DNA from: a virus
Direction: 5' to 3' (one strand)
DNA: 30,986 nt
IMG/VR virus record: IMGVR_UViG_3300025168_000027
Span: 1 to 30,986 of that record
Position 1 is the stretch's first letter, and each line of letters begins with the position of its first letter. Of the stretch, positions 1,847 through 30,986 are shown one piece after another. The notes under the pieces are model-generated. The model did no database searches, was not told the DNA's origin, and was given only the letters and a program-made list of their open reading frames with translations. The translations under genes and the position numbers were made by a program.

Positions 1847-1974
1847 TGGAACGTTACATCTACGCCTATTTAGATGAGGATGGTTTGTTGCAATGGACGG
1901 CAGATGTAACTGAAGCAGAAGAGTTCTCAATAACTACATTTTTTCAAATTGAAGTAATATATGAGGCAGTTTAA
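1846..1974 (+). CDS. Very small acidic protein of unknown function
   Basis: This 42-residue gene begins MERYIYAYLDEDG and is acidic. It starts with TGATG overlap to the previous gene and ends inside the start of the replication initiator (14-base overlap). It is supported only by the continuous overlapped arrangement. An alternative is that it acts mainly as a translational coupler for the initiator gene. Confidence 0.4.
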   Translation: MERYIYAYLDEDGLLQWTADVTEAEEFSITTFFQIEVIYEAV

Positions 1975-2602
1975 AGGGATATGGATACCAAGAATAATTC
2001 TTGAAAACGAAAAGCTAGAACCAATTGATAAGATCCTATGGGCTGACATAGATTCTTTTAACTGGGAAGACAACACATTTTTCAAATCAAATGCGTTGAT
2101 TGCGTCGGACTATGGAGTTAGTGAAAGGACAATCAGCAGGAGTATAAAACGCTTGCAAATAGCAAAGTTGATCGTTATAAAGACTGATGGGCGTAAGAGG
2201 ACTATATGTCCATGCAGCATAGACAATGTGTCTAGCCTGCCTCGCCAATATGGCGACCCTGCCTCGCCAATATGTCTACATAATAATAACAATATATCTA
2301 AACAATCTATAAAAACAACTTATAGTAAGAAAAAACCTACAAGCTTTGAAGAGGTAGAAAGATATTTTGCTGAGATTATGCCTTCAACGCTGAACAGTGA
2401 GTTAGCAAAGGAGAGCTTAAGTTTCTACGATTACTACACGGCTAACGGCTGGGTACAAGGCAAGGGCAAGCCGCTTGTTGATTGGAGAGCAGCGGCTCGA
2501 AATTGGTTACGCAACACTAAACAATGGAAAAAATCAAATCATGGATTTAAAGGAGACAACTTTAGCATTGAAGCCGCAAACGAATTCATTACTCAAGGGT
2601 GA
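1961..2602 (+). CDS. Replication initiator / replisome organiser-like protein
   Basis: This 213-residue protein has the two-part build of phage replication initiators. Residues about 1-90 form a winged helix-turn-helix like those at the N-terminus of lambda O and Gram-positive replisome organisers: 'DKILWADIDSFNW', then 'ASDYGVSERTISRSIKRLQ' as the recognition region. Residues about 95-120 are a low-complexity linker with a run of Asn. Residues 125-190 are a helical domain with the 'FYDYYTANGW...GKPLVDWRAAARNWLRN' pattern found at the C-terminus of many phage replication proteins. The linker is encoded by the iteron repeats described separately, so the protein probably binds an origin inside its own gene and recruits host replication proteins. 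Confidence 0.75.
   Translation: MRQFKGIWIPRIILENEKLEPIDKILWADIDSFNWEDNTFFKSNALIASDYGVSERTISRSIKRLQIAKLIVIKTDGRKRTICPCSIDNVSSLPRQYGDPASPICLHNNNNISKQSIKTTYSKKKPTSFEEVERYFAEIMPSTLNSELAKESLSFYDYYTANGWVQGKGKPLVDWRAAARNWLRNTKQWKKSNHGFKGDNFSIEAANEFITQG
2214..2340 (+). other. Candidate replication origin: 22-bp iterons plus AT-rich tract inside the initiator gene
   Basis: Two exact 17-base direct repeats, CCTGCCTCGCCAATATG, lie at 2236-2252 and 2258-2274, exactly 22 bases apart. Diverged copies stand at the same spacing on both sides: 2214-2230 (11 of 17 match) and 2280-2296 (core CAATAT kept). The CAATRT core therefore occurs four times at 2224, 2246, 2268 and 2290, in perfect 22-base phase, about two helical turns. 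An AT-rich stretch (2275-2340) with an inverted repeat CTATAA/TTATAG (2307-2325) follows. This matches the lambda layout, where iterons in the O gene sit next to an AT-rich unwinding region. Origin function is inferred. Confidence 0.65.
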
Positions 2603-3104
2603 GATAACGTTTGTCAATGCGGCTGATGCATGGCACAAAGGAACTAACATACAAACGGCTGTAAAGCTCATGCCTGATTTGTGTCGCGGTTGGATTTATT
2701 CTCAGGTTGCACAGTTATGTAAGGATATGGACATGACGAAAACACTGAACACTGACGAGCAGTTGCAATTTACATGCCGCGCCATTCTGGAAGAACATCC
2801 TACGTTGAAGCTTGAGGAACTTAAGGCTTGCTTTGATATGATACGGATGGGTAAGTTTGGAAAATTGTTTGAGCGTTTAAAGTCTGCTGAAATATTAGAG
2901 TTTTTAAGGCGTTACGAAGGTGAAGTGCGGTCGGAGGTTTTGGAAAAAAAGTATCACAACGATCGCATGAAACAAACACAACGAATGATGGAGGGTGTTG
3001 ATCCTTTGACACTTAAAGAGTTTATTAAAGACACCAATGTTATCTTAAAGCCAGATGGTATAGGCACACGGCTGGCAAAGAAAAACGGTTGGGATAAAGA
3101 ATAA
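2541..3104 (+). CDS. Conserved phage protein of unknown function, next to the replication initiator
   Basis: I place the start at ATG 2541 (MDLKETTLALKPQ), preceded by A-rich sequence and overlapping the initiator gene by 62 bases. The frame stays open further upstream, but that would lengthen the overlap. The 187-residue product is helical. It has a segment 'HPTLKLEELKACFDMIRMGKFGKLFERL' followed by an Arg/Glu-rich helix, an arrangement I have seen in unnamed proteins paired with DnaD/O-like initiators in Bacteroidota phages. It could be a helicase-loading partner, but it shows no Walker motifs and hence no sign of a DnaC-type ATPase. Role inferred from position only. Confidence 0.65.
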   Translation: MDLKETTLALKPQTNSLLKGEITFVNAADAWHKGTNIQTAVKLMPDLCRGWIYSQVAQLCKDMDMTKTLNTDEQLQFTCRAILEEHPTLKLEELKACFDMIRMGKFGKLFERLKSAEILEFLRRYEGEVRSEVLEKKYHNDRMKQTQRMMEGVDPLTLKEFIKDTNVILKPDGIGTRLAKKNGWDKE

Positions 3105-3140: not shown

Positions 3141-3175
3141 AAGGGGGAGGCTACTTGGATGGTCTCCCTTTTCTT
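3141..3175 (+). terminator. Hairpin with T-rich tail, possible terminator or attenuator
   Basis: AAGGGGGAG (3141-3149) can pair with CTCCCTTTT (3164-3172), including two G-T pairs, around a 14-base loop, and T-rich sequence follows. It lies between the replication pair and the nuclease gene. No promoter is visible between it and the next gene, so partial read-through seems likely. The ATG at 3159 falls in its loop. Confidence 0.5.
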
Positions 3176-3188
3176 TATATTAGATAGT

Positions 3189-3605
3189 GTGAGCGAACGA
3201 ACAAGAGCAGTAACAAACTTAGACGCAGCGTATTCAGTATACGTTCGCAGAAGATACGCAGACACGCAAGGTTATGTGTCATGCTGGACTTGTGGCAAAA
3301 AGAAATTCTGGGAGAAAGACGGCATGCAAGCTGGTCATTTTCAAACAAGAACGAAGTATAGCACTCGTTGGCATGTTGAAGAAATAGACGGTAAGCAAGA
3401 AACTTTAAATTGTATGCCACAATGCGCTCATTGCAATATGGGTAATGGTGGAAGGCAATACGAGTTTGGCAGGAATTTAGACAGAGTTTATGGTCAAGGC
3501 ACAAGCGATCGTTTGATACAGAAAAGCAACCGTACGATAAAGTTCACAACGGCTGAGTTAAAAGAGTTGACTAGCCACTTTAAACGACTAACTAAAGAAC
3601 TGTGA
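3189..3605 (+). CDS. ninG: NinG-type recombination nuclease (HNH-like zinc protein)
   Basis: The protein matches the lambda NinG (Rap) family. Features are an N-terminal helix 'LDAAYSVYVRRRYAD', a first zinc knuckle 'CWTCGKKKFW', a conserved 'MQAGHFQTR', then 'NCMPQCAHCNMGNGG' with the second Cys pair, and a helical C-terminus. Lambda NinG is a Holliday-junction and D-loop resolving endonuclease, so this one is expected to process recombination intermediates during replication or concatemer formation. I prefer the GTG at 3189 (138 residues), because the upstream ATG at 3159 lies in a hairpin loop and would add ten residues of no family resemblance. The stop overlaps the next start as GTGA. 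Confidence 0.85.
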   Translation: MSERTRAVTNLDAAYSVYVRRRYADTQGYVSCWTCGKKKFWEKDGMQAGHFQTRTKYSTRWHVEEIDGKQETLNCMPQCAHCNMGNGGRQYEFGRNLDRVYGQGTSDRLIQKSNRTIKFTTAELKELTSHFKRLTKEL

Positions 3606-4150
3606 CTTGTATCGAGGAGTTTTTTGATGACCACTACGAAGAATTAAAACACATATCTAACATCTGCGTCGGTGAAAAATACGGCAATGATTTGGTTAAT
3701 GACGTGGCAGTCAGTATCTTAGAGAGAGATGACGACAAATACACAGAAATGTGTGAAAGAGGTGAGTTGCTATGGTACGTGTTAAGGTGGATTAAAATTT
3801 GCTCATTTTCAAAGACAACACGGTTTTATTACAAGTACAAGAAATGGACGGAAAATGTAACCTTTGAATATCCGATGCATGCCGTCGGTAATATGACTGA
3901 CAGTTACAAAGACCTAAACCACAAGGAACAATTGCAAGTAATTGATTCACTGTTGGAAGATCTAAACTGGTTTGAAGCAGAAATATTTAGGGTTTACTAT
4001 ATTCATAATCACAGCATAAACACATTGACTAATGCAACAGGAATCGGAAGAAAAACAATCCAAGACAGTCTCAAAAAAAGCAAAGACTACATCCAAAAAA
4101 ACAAAGAAAAAATCCAAGGGACTGGGGGATACGGTGGAGAAAATCACTGA
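3602..4150 (+). CDS. Sigma-70-like regulator (region 4 helix-turn-helix)
   Basis: This 182-residue protein begins at GTG 3602, coupled to the preceding stop. Residues about 5-60 (EEFFDDHYEELKHISN... GNDLVNDVAVSIL) resemble sigma region 2. Residues about 120-170 (LNWFEAEIFRVYYIHNHSINTLTNATGIGRKTIQDSLKKSK) form a good region-4-type HTH. Such divergent sigma-like proteins are common in Bacteroidota phages and probably direct host RNA polymerase to middle or late genes. Region 2 is weak, so it could instead be an anti-sigma-like or purely DNA-binding regulator. Its 3' end overlaps the next gene by 119 bases in another frame. Confidence 0.7.
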   Translation: MTCIEEFFDDHYEELKHISNICVGEKYGNDLVNDVAVSILERDDDKYTEMCERGELLWYVLRWIKICSFSKTTRFYYKYKKWTENVTFEYPMHAVGNMTDSYKDLNHKEQLQVIDSLLEDLNWFEAEIFRVYYIHNHSINTLTNATGIGRKTIQDSLKKSKDYIQKNKEKIQGTGGYGGENH

Positions 4151-4457: not shown

Positions 4458-4804
4458 CGCAAGGAATACTTGATGGATACCAAAGGAGGAAAGACCGATC
4501 GGTAAGCGTCAGGTTTATAACACAAGAGAAGAGCAGCATTGAAGTGATGGCCATAGACGAACTAGTCGATACCTTTGGAATCCTTTACTTTCGAGCTGCT
4601 GAAGAGATGAACAAGGATGAGGTCAATGACTTAGACAACATAGAACTTGATCTGTACGATAAGCCAAAGACACAAAGCCAGAGATTACGAGGTGTGCTGT
4701 TTAAGCTTTGGGAGTCGCAAGGGAAGCAAGGGGATTTTAAAACGTTCTACAAGCAAAAGACTGAATCAGTCATTGAACACTTTAAACAACAGATCGATGA
4801 TTGA
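4445..4804 (+). CDS. Conserved phage protein of unknown function
   Basis: This 119-residue protein overlaps the previous gene by 13 bases. The N-terminal part has 'ILDGYQRRKDRSVSVRFITQE', the centre is acidic, and the C-terminus ends in 'QSQRLRGVLFKLWE...FKTFYKQKTESVIEHFKQQID'. I recognise the 'LDG...RKD.SV...F.TQE ... SQRLR.VL..LW' pattern as a recurrent family in Bacteroidota phages and mobile elements with no assigned function. The mixed alpha/beta N-terminus followed by long helices suggests a small DNA- or RNA-associated accessory protein. Confidence 0.7.
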   Translation: MRILTQGILDGYQRRKDRSVSVRFITQEKSSIEVMAIDELVDTFGILYFRAAEEMNKDEVNDLDNIELDLYDKPKTQSQRLRGVLFKLWESQGKQGDFKTFYKQKTESVIEHFKQQIDD

Positions 4805-14930: not shown

Positions 14931-15122
14931 ATGGATATTTTAGTACACGAACACTGGCGAGATGTAGAGCATGTATTGAAGCTGCATAATCTCGATATGT
15001 TTGTATTACACTATAGGAGCGAGGGTATGGTAGCCTGTGTTGTGGAAGTTGATGACTCGCGTTATGGTCAAGACATCCTTGAGGTATTGAAGGCAAACGG
15101 TTTTGACGCAAACGAATTTTAA
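14931..15122 (+). CDS. Acidic mini-protein 1 of the repeated-junction array
   Basis: ATG 14931 (MDILVHEHWRDVEHVLKLHN) follows A-rich sequence. Upstream in-frame codons encode an implausible Cys/Ile/Tyr-rich stretch and are rejected. The 63-residue product has 13 acidic against 5 basic residues and an alpha/beta pattern, with 'MVACVVEVDDSRYGQDILEVLKANGF' as a strand-helix unit. No family is recognised. It is the first member of an eight-gene array and the only one not preceded by the 17-base junction element. Its stop is the first three bases of junction copy 1. A DNA-mimic or other anti-defence role is inferred from acidity and nearness to ardA. Confidence 0.7.
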   Translation: MDILVHEHWRDVEHVLKLHNLDMFVLHYRSEGMVACVVEVDDSRYGQDILEVLKANGFDANEF

Positions 15123-15133
15123 ACAACAGAGAT

Positions 15134-15379
15134 ATGATTATTGTAATAAAAGGCTTATCGTTTAATGAGGTACATGATTACCTAGACTCACGTGGTGCAG
15201 GCGAAGGTGATTTGGATATTTACATAGATGATTACGGTTATGCAGATGCAGATCGGGGTGATATGCGAAGAATGGTTGAGGTAACGGGTAATTTAGATTT
15301 TGACGAAGAAGAGTTTTTGTTCGAGGTCATGAATGACTTGGAAAGAGAACAACCTGACGTAGAAATTATTGATCTTTAA
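15134..15379 (+). CDS. Acidic mini-protein 2, strongest DNA-mimic candidate
   Basis: This 81-residue protein has 24 Asp/Glu and 6 Lys/Arg (net about -18). An N-terminal strand MIIVIKGLSFNEVHDYLDSR leads into an Asp-rich segment 'DLDIYIDDYGYADADRGD' and an acidic helix 'DFDEEEFLFEVMNDLERE'. The regular spacing of acidic side chains along strands and helices is what DNA-mimic proteins such as ArdA and Ocr use to imitate DNA phosphates, but no sequence family is recognised here. It is flanked on both sides by junction copies 1 and 2. Function is inference. Confidence 0.75.
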   Translation: MIIVIKGLSFNEVHDYLDSRGAGEGDLDIYIDDYGYADADRGDMRRMVEVTGNLDFDEEEFLFEVMNDLEREQPDVEIIDL

Positions 15380-15390
15380 ACAACAGAGAT

Positions 15391-15630
15391 ATGAGTGAAT
15401 TAGATGAAGCATTAGATAAAATTACTCCACGTCTTTTAGACTCATTAGATTATGGAGAAGAATATAAGTTGACTCCTTTGTTCACTCTGTACCGCTACGA
15501 ATCAGAAGATTTTATCGTAGTTAATTTAGATGATGATGAAAATTGGGAGGAATTGCTTGTAGTTATCTACGATGATTATAGCGTAGATTTTGAAATAGTA
15601 GACAATGCGTTGTACAGGAAATACGCATAA
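15391..15630 (+). CDS. Acidic mini-protein 3 of the array
   Basis: This 79-residue protein has about 22 acidic and 6 basic residues. It begins MSELDEALDKITPRLLDSLD (helix), then carries strands 'LFTLYRYESEDFIVVNLDDDE' and 'LLVVIYDDYSVDFEIVD'. The helix followed by a small antiparallel sheet with Asp runs suggests a compact fold with one strongly negative face. No family is recognised. It sits between junction copies 2 and 3. Confidence 0.75.
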   Translation: MSELDEALDKITPRLLDSLDYGEEYKLTPLFTLYRYESEDFIVVNLDDDENWEELLVVIYDDYSVDFEIVDNALYRKYA

Positions 15631-15641
15631 ACAACAGAGAT

Positions 15642-15776
15642 ATGAATAGTCAAGAAATAGACACTCTACATGAGTTGCTGATGGATTTTCAGAATACTGT
15701 ACTTGAAGGATCAATGGGCAGTGCTGAAGACCGTGCAATTAGTGTGGCAATTTCCATAATTGAAGAATATTTGTAA
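15642..15776 (+). CDS. Acidic mini-protein 4 of the array (44 residues)
   Basis: This very short gene is supported by exact junction elements on both sides (copies 3 and 4). The product begins MNSQEIDTLHELLMDFQNTV and has 9 acidic residues against a single Arg. It looks like two helices joined by a Gly/Ser turn (LEGSMGSAED). No family is known. Without the flanking junctions a gene of this size would be hard to defend. Confidence 0.65.
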   Translation: MNSQEIDTLHELLMDFQNTVLEGSMGSAEDRAISVAISIIEEYL

Positions 15777-15787
15777 ACAACAGAGAT

Positions 15788-16006
15788 ATGAATACGACAG
15801 AACAGATCGCAGATTTATTTTCACGCATGGGTTACGTGGTTATTTACGCCATGAACTATACTATTGAACTACAAAAGCCTGACTTTACAGACTGGACCGA
15901 TAGAGAGTTAGACACTCTGTATGATGAAGCAGGTAGGTATGACAGCGTTCGAGTAAGTCCGATTTATAACGAACGCAACATTGCCCAAGTTGAAATAGGA
16001 GTCTAA
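15788..16006 (+). CDS. Acidic mini-protein 5 of the array
   Basis: This 72-residue alpha/beta protein opens MNTTEQIADLFSRMGYVVIY, followed by 'PDFTDWTDRELDTLYDEAGRYDSVRVSP' and a final strand. It has 13 acidic and 6 basic residues, less extreme than its neighbours. The helix-strand opening resembles small ferredoxin-like folds, but I recognise no family. It lies between junction copies 4 and 5. Confidence 0.7.
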   Translation: MNTTEQIADLFSRMGYVVIYAMNYTIELQKPDFTDWTDRELDTLYDEAGRYDSVRVSPIYNERNIAQVEIGV

Positions 16007-16017
16007 ACAACAGAGAT

Positions 16018-16167
16018 ATGAATAAACTTGGAATAGCAATAAGTGGTGCAATATCGGAATTAGATGTTGCAATTTATGAGGCGAAAAAAGTGGGCGATAC
16101 ATTACTTGCTGAAAGATTAGATCAAATTTTTGAGGAATTAGACCGTATTGATCGAAGCCTGTACTAA
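16018..16167 (+). CDS. Acidic mini-protein 6 of the array (49 residues)
   Basis: The product, beginning MNKLGIAISGAISELDVAIY, is almost entirely helical, with 10 acidic and 6 basic residues and a heptad-like spacing of Ile/Leu that would suit a helical hairpin or coiled coil. It is the least acidic member. It lies between junction copies 5 and 6, which define its start and stop. Function unknown. Confidence 0.65.
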   Translation: MNKLGIAISGAISELDVAIYEAKKVGDTLLAERLDQIFEELDRIDRSLY

Positions 16168-16178
16168 ACAACATAGAT

Positions 16179-16409
16179 ATGAGCAGTACACCTAGGAGTT
16201 GGAAAGAGTTATATGATTTAACCAATGATTATTTTGGTTTAAATAGCTATGAAGCGGACTCAATTCTAGAAACATTTTTTGCGTATAACTTTGATGTGAA
16301 CGAACCTGAATTTGTTTATCAATTAAATCAAAGAGAATTGCTTTTAGATAGAGAATGGGAAGATTGGTTTTTGCGGAACGGTGGTGATGAAAGACTGATT
16401 GAATACTAA
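16179..16409 (+). CDS. Acidic mini-protein 7 of the array
   Basis: This 76-residue helical protein has 17 acidic and 6 basic residues and many Phe, Tyr and Trp ('YDLTNDYFGLNSYEADSILETFF', 'LLLDREWEDWFLRNGGDE'). It is preceded by the one junction with a base change (ACATAGAT). Aromatic plus acidic surfaces are typical of protein-protein interfaces and of nucleic-acid mimics, but no family is recognised. Junction copy 7 carries its stop. Confidence 0.7.
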   Translation: MSSTPRSWKELYDLTNDYFGLNSYEADSILETFFAYNFDVNEPEFVYQLNQRELLLDREWEDWFLRNGGDERLIEY

Positions 16410-16418
16410 ACAACAGAG

Positions 16419-16697
16419 ATGAGGACAGACCTATATATCAGTAAAGAAAGACGGTACGATTTGCTCTCGGCTTTGCTATTGGAATATGGCAAAGATCCTT
16501 CTGTTGGTCAGGATCGTTTTGAGTTTATTGAACTTCTTGCTGAGATTACCGCATCGTTTTTTAATGTTGAGGGCATGTCAGCACAAGAAGCCATCGACTA
16601 CGTGGAAGACAGCGTTAGTTATATGGGCATAGGATTTGGAAGAGAAGATTACATTGATGACTTTCTTGATGATTTAGATTACATAAGAAGAGCATAA
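16419..16697 (+). CDS. Acidic mini-protein 8 of the array
   Basis: This 92-residue helical protein begins MRTDLYISKERRYDLLSALL and ends in a strongly acidic helix 'GREDYIDDFLDDLDYIRR'. About 21 acidic and 9 basic residues are present, the basic ones clustered at the N-terminus. Its start follows the shortened junction (copy 7, two bases missing), and its stop belongs to copy 8, which also starts the prohead protease. Function unknown. Confidence 0.7.
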   Translation: MRTDLYISKERRYDLLSALLLEYGKDPSVGQDRFEFIELLAEITASFFNVEGMSAQEAIDYVEDSVSYMGIGFGREDYIDDFLDDLDYIRRA

Positions 16698-16708
16698 ACA
16701 ACAGAGAT

Positions 16709-17656
16709 ATGGAACGTAAGCTAATTGAACTACTTATTGGGGACGAATCAGAAGTTGCAGTAGAAGCAATCAGTCTAGTAAAGCATCCTGCAATTGAGGA
16801 GAATTTCATCTTTTTCTCTAAGCAGGGTAAGAAAGATCAATTTGTCTCATTAGCGAGCGTAGAGGACGAGGACAAACGGATGCTCATTGGCCCTGCTTTA
16901 ATTCCTGATAAGCACATCCCACGATACGATGAGCTGAAAGACGAGGAGTACGACGTTTACTTCTCTAAGGACACAGTTAAGCAAGCTGCTGAAATGTATT
17001 TGAAGCAGAACCGCACCAACGATCACACCTTTGAGCATCAGGACGCAATCGACAATGTATCAGTCGTAGAGTCTTGGGTAGTGTCTGACCCAGAGATGGA
17101 TAAATCAAAGCATTATGGACTAAACGTACCTGAAGGCACTTGGATGGTTCGAGTCCACGTAGGGAACGACGAGATGTGGAAATTCGTCAAGGAGCAAGAA
17201 GTACAAGGCTTTTCTATTGAAGGCTATTTCGTAGACAAAATTGAAAACATGAGCAAACGCGCAAATCCTATTATGGATACCCTTACCGAAATCAAGAACT
17301 TGCTATTGGGCAAACGAAATCTGTACGCTGAAGTCAGGCTTGAAAACGGTCAAATGATTGTCACAGAATCCGATGAATTATCGGCTGGAGTTGAGGTCAA
17401 AACTTTAGATGAAGAAGGTCAGCCAATCGAAATGGCTAACGGCAAGTACACCACAGAAGCAGGAGTAGAGCTTGAGGTGTTTTCAGGCGTTTTAACGGAG
17501 TATGACGGAGAAGTAAAGGCAACGGAAGACAAGGCAGAAGAAGAGGTAAAGAAGGAGGAGTTAAGCCGTAAAAAGCTAATCAAAAAGCACAAGCGCGAAC
17601 TACACAAAATAGTAGTTAAGAAATACGGTTCACTTTACAATTTAAAGAAGCTATGA
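16709..17656 (+). CDS. Prohead serine protease, XkdF-type (S78_2-like)
   Basis: Residues about 20-180 match the XkdF-like prohead protease family. There is an opening 'AVEAISLVKHPAIEENFIFF', then 'RMLIGPALIPDKHIPR', the catalytic His segment 'TFEHQDAIDNVSVVESWVV' and the catalytic Ser in 'EVQGFSIEGYF'. It is expected to mature inside the prohead and digest scaffold. Residues about 185-315 are a separate Glu/Lys-rich tail with 'VRLENGQMIVTESDEL' and 'EEEVKKEELSRKKLIKKHKREL', a possible built-in scaffold segment. Its start uses the same junction element as the upstream mini-genes, and its stop overlaps the ardA start as ATGA. Confidence 0.85.
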   Translation: MERKLIELLIGDESEVAVEAISLVKHPAIEENFIFFSKQGKKDQFVSLASVEDEDKRMLIGPALIPDKHIPRYDELKDEEYDVYFSKDTVKQAAEMYLKQNRTNDHTFEHQDAIDNVSVVESWVVSDPEMDKSKHYGLNVPEGTWMVRVHVGNDEMWKFVKEQEVQGFSIEGYFVDKIENMSKRANPIMDTLTEIKNLLLGKRNLYAEVRLENGQMIVTESDELSAGVEVKTLDEEGQPIEMANGKYTTEAGVELEVFSGVLTEYDGEVKATEDKAEEEVKKEELSRKKLIKKHKRELHKIVVKKYGSLYNLKKL

Positions 17657-22337: not shown

Positions 22338-24713
22338 ATGATACAGTTAGCTAATTACGAACAGAGGACATTTTACATTGATTTAGGTGAAGAATTAACG
22401 GTAGTTGATTTGACCCTGATTTTTCAAATGACTGACGAGAATTTTTTGGTGCGTTTGACTGCTGACAAAACCAATGAACGGGCCACAAAATTTAGTTACA
22501 CAGCTACAGGTTTACCAGAAGGTCAATATTTAGCGTCTTTTGCTAAAGTGGACGGCACAGACTTAGTTACTGTTGCTGCTTTTGTCACAGGCGACCCAAT
22601 TTTTGCTACTAGCCAGTACAACACTTACAACGACGACGGGACAAGTACAACGTTTGTACCGAGCAACGATCAAGGCTTAGTGCCTAGTGTATCGCAACGG
22701 CTTAGAGTAAAAACCGATAACGACGCAACCGACGTGCATTACGTGCGCACTATAAATGTACCAGACGGAACGCTGACAGATGATGGCAACGGTGAGGTTA
22801 CTTTAGATACTAGCGCAACAGGAGCAGAATCGTTAAACGATTTGAACGACGTTGCCATAAACAATCCTATCCAAGGTAGTGTTATCTCTTACAACTCTGG
22901 AGTTCAAAAGTGGATGGTCAATAATGGCCTTCAAGACCTACTTGCACGATTTAAAGCAAGCGGAACAGGGGCACAAGTATATGACACTCTAAACGACACA
23001 ACAAAGGGGTATATCGACATTCTTGCCAATAGCGCAAAGATGAAAGTCAACCTCTCAGGTCTAACTGTTACCGAAGCAAGTCCAGGAGTTATGTCCTTTG
23101 CAGTTGCAGCAGGTACAGCAGGGAACGAGGTTGAGTTTGAGGCAATGACTATCGAAGGGAGCGACGCTCTATCGACAATTGCAGACATTAACTTTAAACA
23201 AGGCTCGCTAACATATTGGGAGAATGCTACGGGTAAGATTTGGCTTCGCGCACCTAACGTGGGGAATATTACGGTACTCTTTCCAAGCTCAGGCGGTACG
23301 CTGGCACTTACGACCGATATCCCAAACGTTCCTGTCGACTCGGTAAACGGTCAAACGGGTGTTGTTGTTTTGGATACGGGAGACATTGACGAGAACGGGA
23401 ATCTTTATTATACAGAGGCACGGGTTGCAGCGAATGCCGCTGTCGCAGCAAATACGTTAAAGGTGGGAATCACAACCCAACAAGCCGCTGACATAACCGC
23501 CAATAACGCCAAGGTTGGAATTACTTCAGGGCAAGCGAGCGCAATCACAACGAACACAGCTAAGACTGGAATTACATCAACTCAAGCTAGTGACATTACG
23601 GCTAACAATGCGAAGACGGGCATTACTTCAGGGCAAGCCTCAGCGATTACTGCAAACACTGCAAAGATTAGCTATACGGATGCAAGCGCAGTTGCAGCCA
23701 ACACTGCAAAAGTTGGAATTACAAGCCAACAGGCTACGGACATAACAACTAACAACGCGAAGGTTAGTTACACAGATGGCGCAGTTGATTCACGAATCGC
23801 AGCGGCTGACATTGGGGATCTTGCAGATGTTCCCGCATTAATTGGAACAACGGGACAGGTGCTTGCCGTGAACACAGGTGCAACAGCGTTAGAATATGTA
23901 GATCAATCAGGAGGCGGTGGCGGCACAACTTTCGATTACGCTCGTGCTGTTATGAGCGCGTCAGTTTTAAAAGGTGGAGGCAGCCAACAGGATTTTAACA
24001 GCGCAACCGCGCAAAAGGTAAAGTTTGACACAAGCGCAGACACGGAAGGCACAGGTATCACAATTGACCCAACGAACAACCGCATCACGGTTAGTGCTAC
24101 GGGTTACTATCAATTGACCAGTAACATAACATTTAATTCTAGCGCAACAAGAACAACGCCAGCGACGTTCTTTAAAAAGAATGGCAGCACTAATTTACTT
24201 GGCGAGGGTTACGGCTATATCAGAAATGCATCGGCACAAAATGACAACAATAATTTGGTTACCTGCATTGTTGAGTTGCAAGGAGGCGACTATGTTGAAG
24301 TGTTCTCGTTTGATTCAAGTACAGTCGCAGGCACTTGTTTTGCAACACAAGCATTTTTCGAGGTAAGCTCAACAGGTGGTCAAGCAGGACCGCAAGGCCC
24401 AAGTGGCACGACTTACGATGTTGTAACGCTGACAGGTTCAACAACTCTATCAAGTGCGCACACAACAAAATATCTTGTTCTTAACAGTGCTTCAGCAGTA
24501 AATATTACCGTACCAGCGTCTGCGTCTTATGACACTTATGCCGAGTTTGTTATTGAGCAGCGCGGGGCGGGCACTGTCACGGTAGTTGCAGCGTCAGGGG
24601 TAACAATCTACAGCTCAGAAACGTTAGTTTCAGGCGGTCAATACGCGGTAATGGGTTTAAAGAGAACTGCGTCAAATGTTTACACCTTGACGGGAGAAAG
24701 ACAAGCAAGCTAA
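22338..24713 (+). CDS. Tail fibre with trimer-type repeats and C1q-like domain
   Basis: This is a 791-residue protein from ATG 22338 (a GTG lies directly before it). Residues 1-90 are a compact beta domain (MIQLANYEQRTFYIDLGEEL), probably the virion anchor. Residues about 200-345 carry 'SLNDLNDVAI'-type and prophage-fibre-like sequence. Residues 376-475 are 17-residue repeats. About 525-680 is a C1q/TNF-like jelly roll ('DYARAVMSASVLKGG', 'ATGYYQLTSNITFNSS'). A short collagen-like 'GPQGPSG' is followed by a C-terminal beta domain ('AEFVIEQRGAGTVTVVAASGV'). This is a receptor-binding fibre, probably trimeric. Its stop overlaps the next gene (TAATG). Confidence 0.8.
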   Translation: MIQLANYEQRTFYIDLGEELTVVDLTLIFQMTDENFLVRLTADKTNERATKFSYTATGLPEGQYLASFAKVDGTDLVTVAAFVTGDPIFATSQYNTYNDDGTSTTFVPSNDQGLVPSVSQRLRVKTDNDATDVHYVRTINVPDGTLTDDGNGEVTLDTSATGAESLNDLNDVAINNPIQGSVISYNSGVQKWMVNNGLQDLLARFKASGTGAQVYDTLNDTTKGYIDILANSAKMKVNLSGLTVTEASPGVMSFAVAAGTAGNEVEFEAMTIEGSDALSTIADINFKQGSLTYWENATGKIWLRAPNVGNITVLFPSSGGTLALTTDIPNVPVDSVNGQTGVVVLDTGDIDENGNLYYTEARVAANAAVAANTLKVGITTQQAADITANNAKVGITSGQASAITTNTAKTGITSTQASDITANNAKTGITSGQASAITANTAKISYTDASAVAANTAKVGITSQQATDITTNNAKVSYTDGAVDSRIAAADIGDLADVPALIGTTGQVLAVNTGATALEYVDQSGGGGGTTFDYARAVMSASVLKGGGSQQDFNSATAQKVKFDTSADTEGTGITIDPTNNRITVSATGYYQLTSNITFNSSATRTTPATFFKKNGSTNLLGEGYGYIRNASAQNDNNNLVTCIVELQGGDYVEVFSFDSSTVAGTCFATQAFFEVSSTGGQAGPQGPSGTTYDVVTLTGSTTLSSAHTTKYLVLNSASAVNITVPASASYDTYAEFVIEQRGAGTVTVVAASGVTIYSSETLVSGGQYAVMGLKRTASNVYTLTGERQAS
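23463..23762 (+). repeat. 51-base (17-residue) tandem repeats in the tail fibre gene
   Basis: Units at 23463, 23514, 23565 and 23616 encode variants of 'VGITSGQASAITANTAK'. A 45-base unit follows at 23667 (ISYTDASAVAANTAK) and a further 51-base unit at 23712. The pattern IT..QA..IT.N.AK.G recurs in fibres of marine Bacteroidota phages and probably forms a trimeric coiled or helical stalk. Such repeats can change in number and so alter fibre length. Confidence 0.9.
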
Positions 24714-30558: not shown

Positions 30559-30881
30559 ACAGTAACGCTATAGAGGTAACAAACAATTTTGAAACTTGCC
30601 AGTCTGCAATTGATTTTTATAATCAGCACGGATTGGAAGACGGTATGAGTAAGGTTATTGGTGTCCTACAGTATTGGATAGACAGATCGCCTATAGGCAG
30701 GCTACACGAAAACTATTTTAAAAGCACTGTTTTTTTTATGCTTGCTTATGATATGTACAAGGTGCATGGTTTTCGCGATGAGGTTGTTAAAGCCTTAAAC
30801 ATTGCGGAGTCATACGCAAGCGGCAAGGGCCAGATGAACGCAATAGATGGTGCATTGGCAATTTTAAAACGTGAAAAATGA
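30555..30881 (+). CDS. Second early protein of unknown function
   Basis: This 108-residue helical protein begins with ATGA overlap to the previous gene. It contains 'VTNNFETCQSAIDFYNQHGLEDG' and two long helices 'FKSTVFFMLAYDMYKVHGF' and 'DEVVKALNIAESYASGKGQM', with no family recognised. Its stop at 30879-30881 overlaps the ATG of the gene that starts at 30878 (position 19 on the left copy), which proves that the operon runs across the contig junction. Confidence 0.7.
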   Translation: MNSNAIEVTNNFETCQSAIDFYNQHGLEDGMSKVIGVLQYWIDRSPIGRLHENYFKSTVFFMLAYDMYKVHGFRDEVVKALNIAESYASGKGQMNAIDGALAILKREK

Positions 30882-30986
30882 ATCACAGTCAACAAGAAAA
30901 TTGGGTAACGGGTAGGTTAGGCACTAAATCAACTGTTGCTTATAGAACGAGCATTTGGACACCCGTAGACGAAGACGATTTAAACG
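30860..30986. repeat. 127-bp terminal overlap, right copy
   Basis: This stretch is identical to bases 1-127. It contains the last 22 bases of the preceding gene and the first 109 bases of a second, truncated copy of the gene annotated at 19-300 (from 30878). One copy should be removed to obtain the circular sequence of 30,859 bp. Confidence 0.95.

Follow-up and report, generated by a model that had tools for sequence, protein, structure and literature searches.

Phased dyad sites in the linker of a phage initiator gene mark a likely theta-type replication origin

The stretch of viral DNA analyzed here, 30,986 bp long and referred to as the window, carries short and regularly spaced repeats inside the gene of a predicted replication initiator, and we asked what these repeats are for. 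Comparisons of the DNA and of the encoded proteins with their relatives led us to a reading that we consider very likely: positions 2198-2326 constitute a phage replication origin of the theta type, which lies in the linker-coding part of the initiator gene and is bound by the encoded protein. The features on which this reading draws are collected in Table 1. The window begins and ends with an exact 127-bp direct terminal repeat (1-127 and 30860-30986), and the assembly is therefore probably circular and complete, with a length of 30,859 bp. Its cumulative GC skew, proposed beforehand as a check, rises almost monotonically, shows no turn near 2.2 kb, and is uninformative for an origin; a search of Rfam found no family in the window. 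Elsewhere, a 51-bp tandem repeat (2.4 copies, 23516-23638) lies inside a long ORF, and a leader, TAAACAACAGAGATATG, was found nine times with at most three mismatches (0.11 expected), at 15120-16711 and as a weaker copy at 4783. Several ORFs begin, with ATG, where the leader ends (15134, 15391, 15788, 16709, and others), and the leader looks like a shared gene-start element.

Table 1. Coordinates of the features discussed in the text, numbered from the first base of the window.
Feature	Coordinates	Strand	Remarks
Replication initiator gene	1961..2602	+	213 aa; HTH_36 winged-helix type (FKGIWIP family)
N-terminal winged-helix DNA-binding domain	1961..2233	+	Residues 1-91; AlphaFold model
Recognition helix	2123..2161	+	Residues 55-67, with Arg56 and Arg60 inside; AlphaFold model
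Dyad site 1	2198..2212	unstranded	AGGACTATATGTCCA; absent from the earlier note; conserved in relatives
Spacer 1	2213..2219	unstranded	TGCAGCA, central CAG
Dyad site 2	2220..2234	unstranded	TAGACAATGTGTCTA
Spacer 2	2235..2241	unstranded	GCCTGCC, central CTG
Dyad site 3	2242..2256	unstranded	TCGCCAATATGGCGA
Spacer 3	2257..2263	unstranded	CCCTGCC, central CTG
Dyad site 4	2264..2278	unstranded	TCGCCAATATGTCTA
AT-rich tract, candidate DNA unwinding element	2277..2326	unstranded	42/50 A/T; includes 2286-2300
C-terminal helical domain	2345..2599	+	Residues 129-213; AlphaFold model
Partner gene	2541..3104	+	187 aa; overlaps the 3' end of the initiator gene; candidate helicase loader

An earlier note on this DNA, made from the letters alone, had described two exact 17-base repeats 22 bases apart, flanked by diverged copies in the same phase. 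The exact repeat, CCTGCCTCGCCAATATG, is indeed present at 2236-2252 and 2258-2274, the core CAATRT recurs at 2224, 2246, 2268, and 2290, and Tandem Repeats Finder reports 2224-2279 with a period of 22 and a score of 84. Upon a closer inspection, the repeated unit is a 15-bp dyad that recurs every 22 bp from 2198, 2220, 2242, and 2264. The count of four in-phase copies therefore needed a correction: the cores are where they were said to be, but the copy at 2290 is not part of a dyad, and the dyad at 2198 had been overlooked. At 2286-2300 only two of seven mirrored pairs match and no CWG spacer (CAG or CTG) precedes the copy, so we counted it as part of the AT-rich tract. The sites have the mirror symmetry seen for binding by a dimer. 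Being dyads, they are not direct repeats without internal symmetry, and we excluded the monomer-binding direct-repeat iterons of plasmids, a distinction drawn as in PMC5043065.

Chance is a poor explanation for this arrangement. None of 500 synonymous-codon shuffles of the gene reached its best dyad-pair score, and the four-site array scored 53, whereas none of 200 order-2 simulations of the whole window exceeded 41. The same scoring recovered the annotated iterons in the lambda O gene, where 4 of 500 shuffles scored as high as the gene itself, and hence works on a known case. Allowing one mismatch, the site occurs six times in the window, where chance alone would give 3.0, and three of the six belong to the array; for this reason, we claim no sites outside the array.

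The AT-rich tract that the earlier note saw after the repeats also held up: the 50 bp following the last site are the least stable 50-mer of the entire window. In the relatives, instability was ranked within about 2 kb. Of 42 clusters, 37 have DNA from the most unstable 1% immediately 3' of the array, whereas random places give 4.3%; on the 5' side, a single cluster does. TAATAA-like triplets 3' of the array were considered as a single-strand binding motif; those inspected follow the codon frame, and we therefore do not claim them. As the same note had proposed, the array sits in the linker of the initiator. In the AlphaFold model, a low-confidence segment (residues about 85-128) separates the winged helix from the C-terminal helical domain, and coincides with the array and the tract.

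Next, we considered whether the protein or the DNA is conserved here. By a criterion named beforehand, an origin would be contradicted if relatives with the same initiator had lost the 22-base spacing; the spacing was retained in all close relatives examined. Where the window and one relative (L010) encode identical residues in codons 80-119, they use the identical codon at 25 of 29 positions, compared with 40 of 93 elsewhere in the gene (p=3e-5); between L010 and a second relative (L023), the corresponding figures are 25 of 26 and 41 of 99 (p=1.3e-7). The repeats might instead have been conserved for the peptide that they encode, with the DNA pattern as a by-product, since RQYGD, SPICL, and similar pieces are common to close relatives and occur in the same order. 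However, 22 is not a multiple of three, so the reading frame shifts from one dyad to the next, through all three frames, and the encoded peptides differ (RTICP, IDNVS, RQYGD, and SPICL). Moreover, synonymous positions are frozen, no synonymous shuffle reproduces the pattern, and the encoded segment is the low-confidence part of the protein model. We regard an explanation by the peptide as barely credible. What is conserved in the array is the DNA itself.

When viral contigs were scanned for a two-site DNA pattern, using no protein information, arrays turned up in the linkers of initiators about 30% identical to that of the window; the matches include initiators missed by the search for close homologues, and in several of them the gene lies on the strand opposite to the matched pattern. 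In bacterial genome contigs, 19 stretches (L060-L078), several of them from Bacillota, match the two-site array pattern, with Jeotgalibacillus matching twice in one contig. A protein search of genome contigs found no relative. The bacterial stretches may be prophages with the same origin.

To describe the array across the family, protein searches were seeded from these genes and yielded 275 gene copies, of which 160 were distinct, in 79 clusters at 70% identity. An array was called for a cluster when no more than 5 of 200 synonymous shuffles scored as high as the natural sequence. By this measure 53 of the 79 clusters have an array, with about two expected by chance, a proportion that is no unbiased frequency because most of the genes used as search seeds themselves had an array; the other 26 showed no clear array at the threshold used. 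Among the 53, the best spacing is 22 bp in 40, and in 50 the array falls within codons 74-107, just past the winged helix. The spacers are also alike. CWG is exactly in the middle of 62 of the 69 spacers of 22-bp arrays, 11 bp from the dyad centre, whereas it is found at any other spacer offset in at most 4 of 69. This central CWG is nearly invariant even though the half-sites differ among relatives.

We took advantage of this variation in half-sites to examine what reads them. Among 25 clusters whose initiator has Arg60, 24 have C at position 5 of the half-site (CAA), and all 14 clusters with Lys60 have A there (AAA); the association of residue 60 with position 5 gives a Fisher value of 1e-9 over 44 clusters with readable sites, with kinship ignored. 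Residue 56 shows a looser trend with the site sequence. On a tree built from the winged-helix domain with the recognition helix masked, the Arg/Lys change at residue 60 occurred at least seven times, and the site changed eight times. Well-supported branches provide only two independent contrasts, both concordant in nearly all pairings, which are too few for significance. The tracking of the half-site by residue 60 suggests that it is the encoded protein that binds, and the case that this protein reads the sites is good but not tree-proof. Another protein, of the host or of the phage, might be the main reader of the dyads within an origin, given that CWG is nearly invariant where the half-sites vary and could be read by a second, common factor. 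Yet it is the recognition helix of the encoded protein that the half-sites follow, and the phage has no further DNA-binding candidate that can be linked to the array. We therefore consider another main reader very improbable, and continue with the encoded initiator as the putative one.

What kind of protein is this initiator? It matches HTH_36 (PF13730) at 26.5 bits, above the curated cutoff of 25, and 43 of 44 relatives match the same family at an E-value of 0.01 or better. Its PHROG matches are to replication-initiation and DnaD-like loader families. Neither RepA_N nor Phage_rep_O (PF04492) was among its Pfam matches up to an E-value of 0.1; two of the 44 relatives match Phage_rep_O weakly (best 0.002), while the O proteins of lambda and HK97 match it strongly. 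In a PDB fold search with the winged-helix model, the best-matching solved initiators were 4pql, 4pt7, and 5kbj (Z 9.2 to 10.3), which, going by their entry titles, we take to be N-domains of RepA_N initiators. This attribution agrees with a review (PMC5703833). The highest of these scores, Z 10.3 over 90 residues for 4pql and Z 9.9 for 4pt7, are to be read beside the 9 to 10 of other winged helices, and identity to the RepA_N N-domains is about 16%. One of the matched RepA_N structures is a Rep-DNA complex. Judged by its profile matches, the initiator belongs to neither Phage_rep_O nor RepA_N, and represents a distinct HTH_36 family. The initiator of Psychrobacter phage Y8A matches the C-terminal half of the window protein, and we infer that the C-terminal helical domain contacts the replisome.

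A winged-helix protein with dyad sites could instead serve in gene regulation, in which case the array would be an operator through which the protein controls transcription of its own operon rather than the start of replication. Such proteins are often regulators, and many of the fold neighbours are repressors. On the other hand, the array lies deep inside a gene and not at a promoter, above-chance copies are missing from the rest of the window, the unstable tract is on a fixed side of the array, and the initiator, like the neighbours of its relatives, belongs to replication families. An operator in place of an origin thus appears improbable to us; a double role of the array, as operator and origin, is possible.

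The gene that overlaps the 3' end of the initiator is kept beside it through most of the clade. Its family matches only PHROGs of unknown function, with phrog_35728 matched by 28 of 31 members, and a fold search with the protein gave a best Z of 4.3 and no E-value under 0.9, so we assigned it to no family. Named relatives have at this position a gene for a DnaB-type helicase, for DnaC, for an ATP-binding protein, or for an AAA ATPase, and from these genes a helicase-loading role is suggested for the partner, which is possibly a new kind of helicase loader. Further downstream, there is a NinG-like endonuclease gene (3159-3605) and then a gene that may encode a sigma-factor-like protein or a late regulator (3602-4150), and these make up a lambda-like early gene order.

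How might such an origin work? We propose that the initiator would bind the four phased dyads as dimers via its winged-helix domain, with the recognition helix reading the half-sites. Initiator complexes seated side by side would put the DNA under strain, so that the AT-rich tract next to them opens. The C-terminal domain, probably together with the partner protein, would then bring in the host replicative helicase. In sum, the dyads, their phasing, their conservation at the DNA level, the low stability and placement of the tract, and the correlation of protein with site are observed; from these we infer binding, melting, helicase loading, and origin activity at 2198-2326, in the manner of lambda ori/O and of RepA_N plasmids such as pSK41.

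The distinctive parts of this putative origin are its strict 22-bp phasing, the CWG spacers, and the paired changes of helix and site; in the open-licence literature searched, we found no publication describing them. We tentatively advance a broader proposition, on which we remain slightly more doubtful than convinced, namely that a single origin design is common to a large group of phages, most of them unnamed. Its 22-bp unit would have two symmetry axes 11 bp apart, one being the variable dyad read by each initiator and the other the nearly invariant CWG. Specificity would shift when the recognition helix and the half-site change in step, so that the origin of an unstudied phage could be predicted from the sequence of its initiator, and CWG would serve a step common to all members. 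Apart from this proposition, the array offers a precise and testable origin for a group of uncultivated phages, as well as a natural set of matched initiator/site variants for measuring a rule of protein-DNA recognition. The combination of 22-bp dyads, CWG spacers, and a 3' unwinding tract would also be a simple origin marker for unannotated phage genomes.

A close parallel in layout is lambda, whose ori lies within O and is bound by O dimers (PMC5043065). Lambda and the window have in common four mirror-image sites in the linker of an initiator gene and an AT-rich unwinding tract beside them. The likeness to lambda O that the earlier note drew thus stands for layout and symmetry; as for the protein, its predicted DNA-binding domain has its best initiator matches among RepA_N structures and, unlike lambda O, which is of the Pfam family Phage_rep_O, the window initiator has no match to that family at an E-value of 0.1. 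The sites differ too: those of lambda start 20, 24, and 23 bp apart and lack a regular CWG spacer, in contrast to 22 bp with CWG in the window. The next gene of lambda, P, acts in helicase loading, as is suggested for the partner gene; the latter has no detectable similarity to a known loader.

Plasmids of the RepA_N type provide a second parallel. Rep of pSK41 binds four boxes inside rep, and resembles the window initiator in its winged-helix N-domain, the boxes inside the gene, an origin-encoded linker, and a separate C-terminal domain (PMC5703833). The differences are that pSK41 is a plasmid and not a phage, and that the window initiator has no RepA_N Pfam match. The pPR9 mini-replicon, with a chimeric Rep whose N-domain is HTH_36 (pfam13730), replicates autonomously (PMC5703833). 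Like the Rep of pPR9, Orf5 of Leptospira LE1 and the lcp rep genes encode initiators with an HTH_36-type or related helix-turn-helix, and their rep regions support autonomous replication (PMC5703833; PMC4338851); an origin inside these genes is not mapped in the texts of the two papers. A rep of the pPR9 type was absent from the matches of the plasmid search used. Among the distantly related Leptospira genes, LE1 orf5, p74 rep, and the L. kobayashii rep genes have no dyad array, and we dropped them as an experimental bridge; lcp3 rep has one dyad pair, a weak signal that 2 of 500 shuffles reached.

Five named phages, namely Pseudomonas HU1, Skulduggery, and Cruim01, Psychrobacter Y8A, and Oceanospirillum GJ44, also carry repeats in the linkers of their initiator genes, 20-23 bp apart. 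Their repeat sequences differ from those of the window, the spacing is less regular, and no origin is annotated there in their records. The gene after the initiator is annotated as replication protein P in Y8A; in HU1, Skulduggery, and GJ44, genes for a helicase, a DnaC-like protein, or an AAA ATPase come next.
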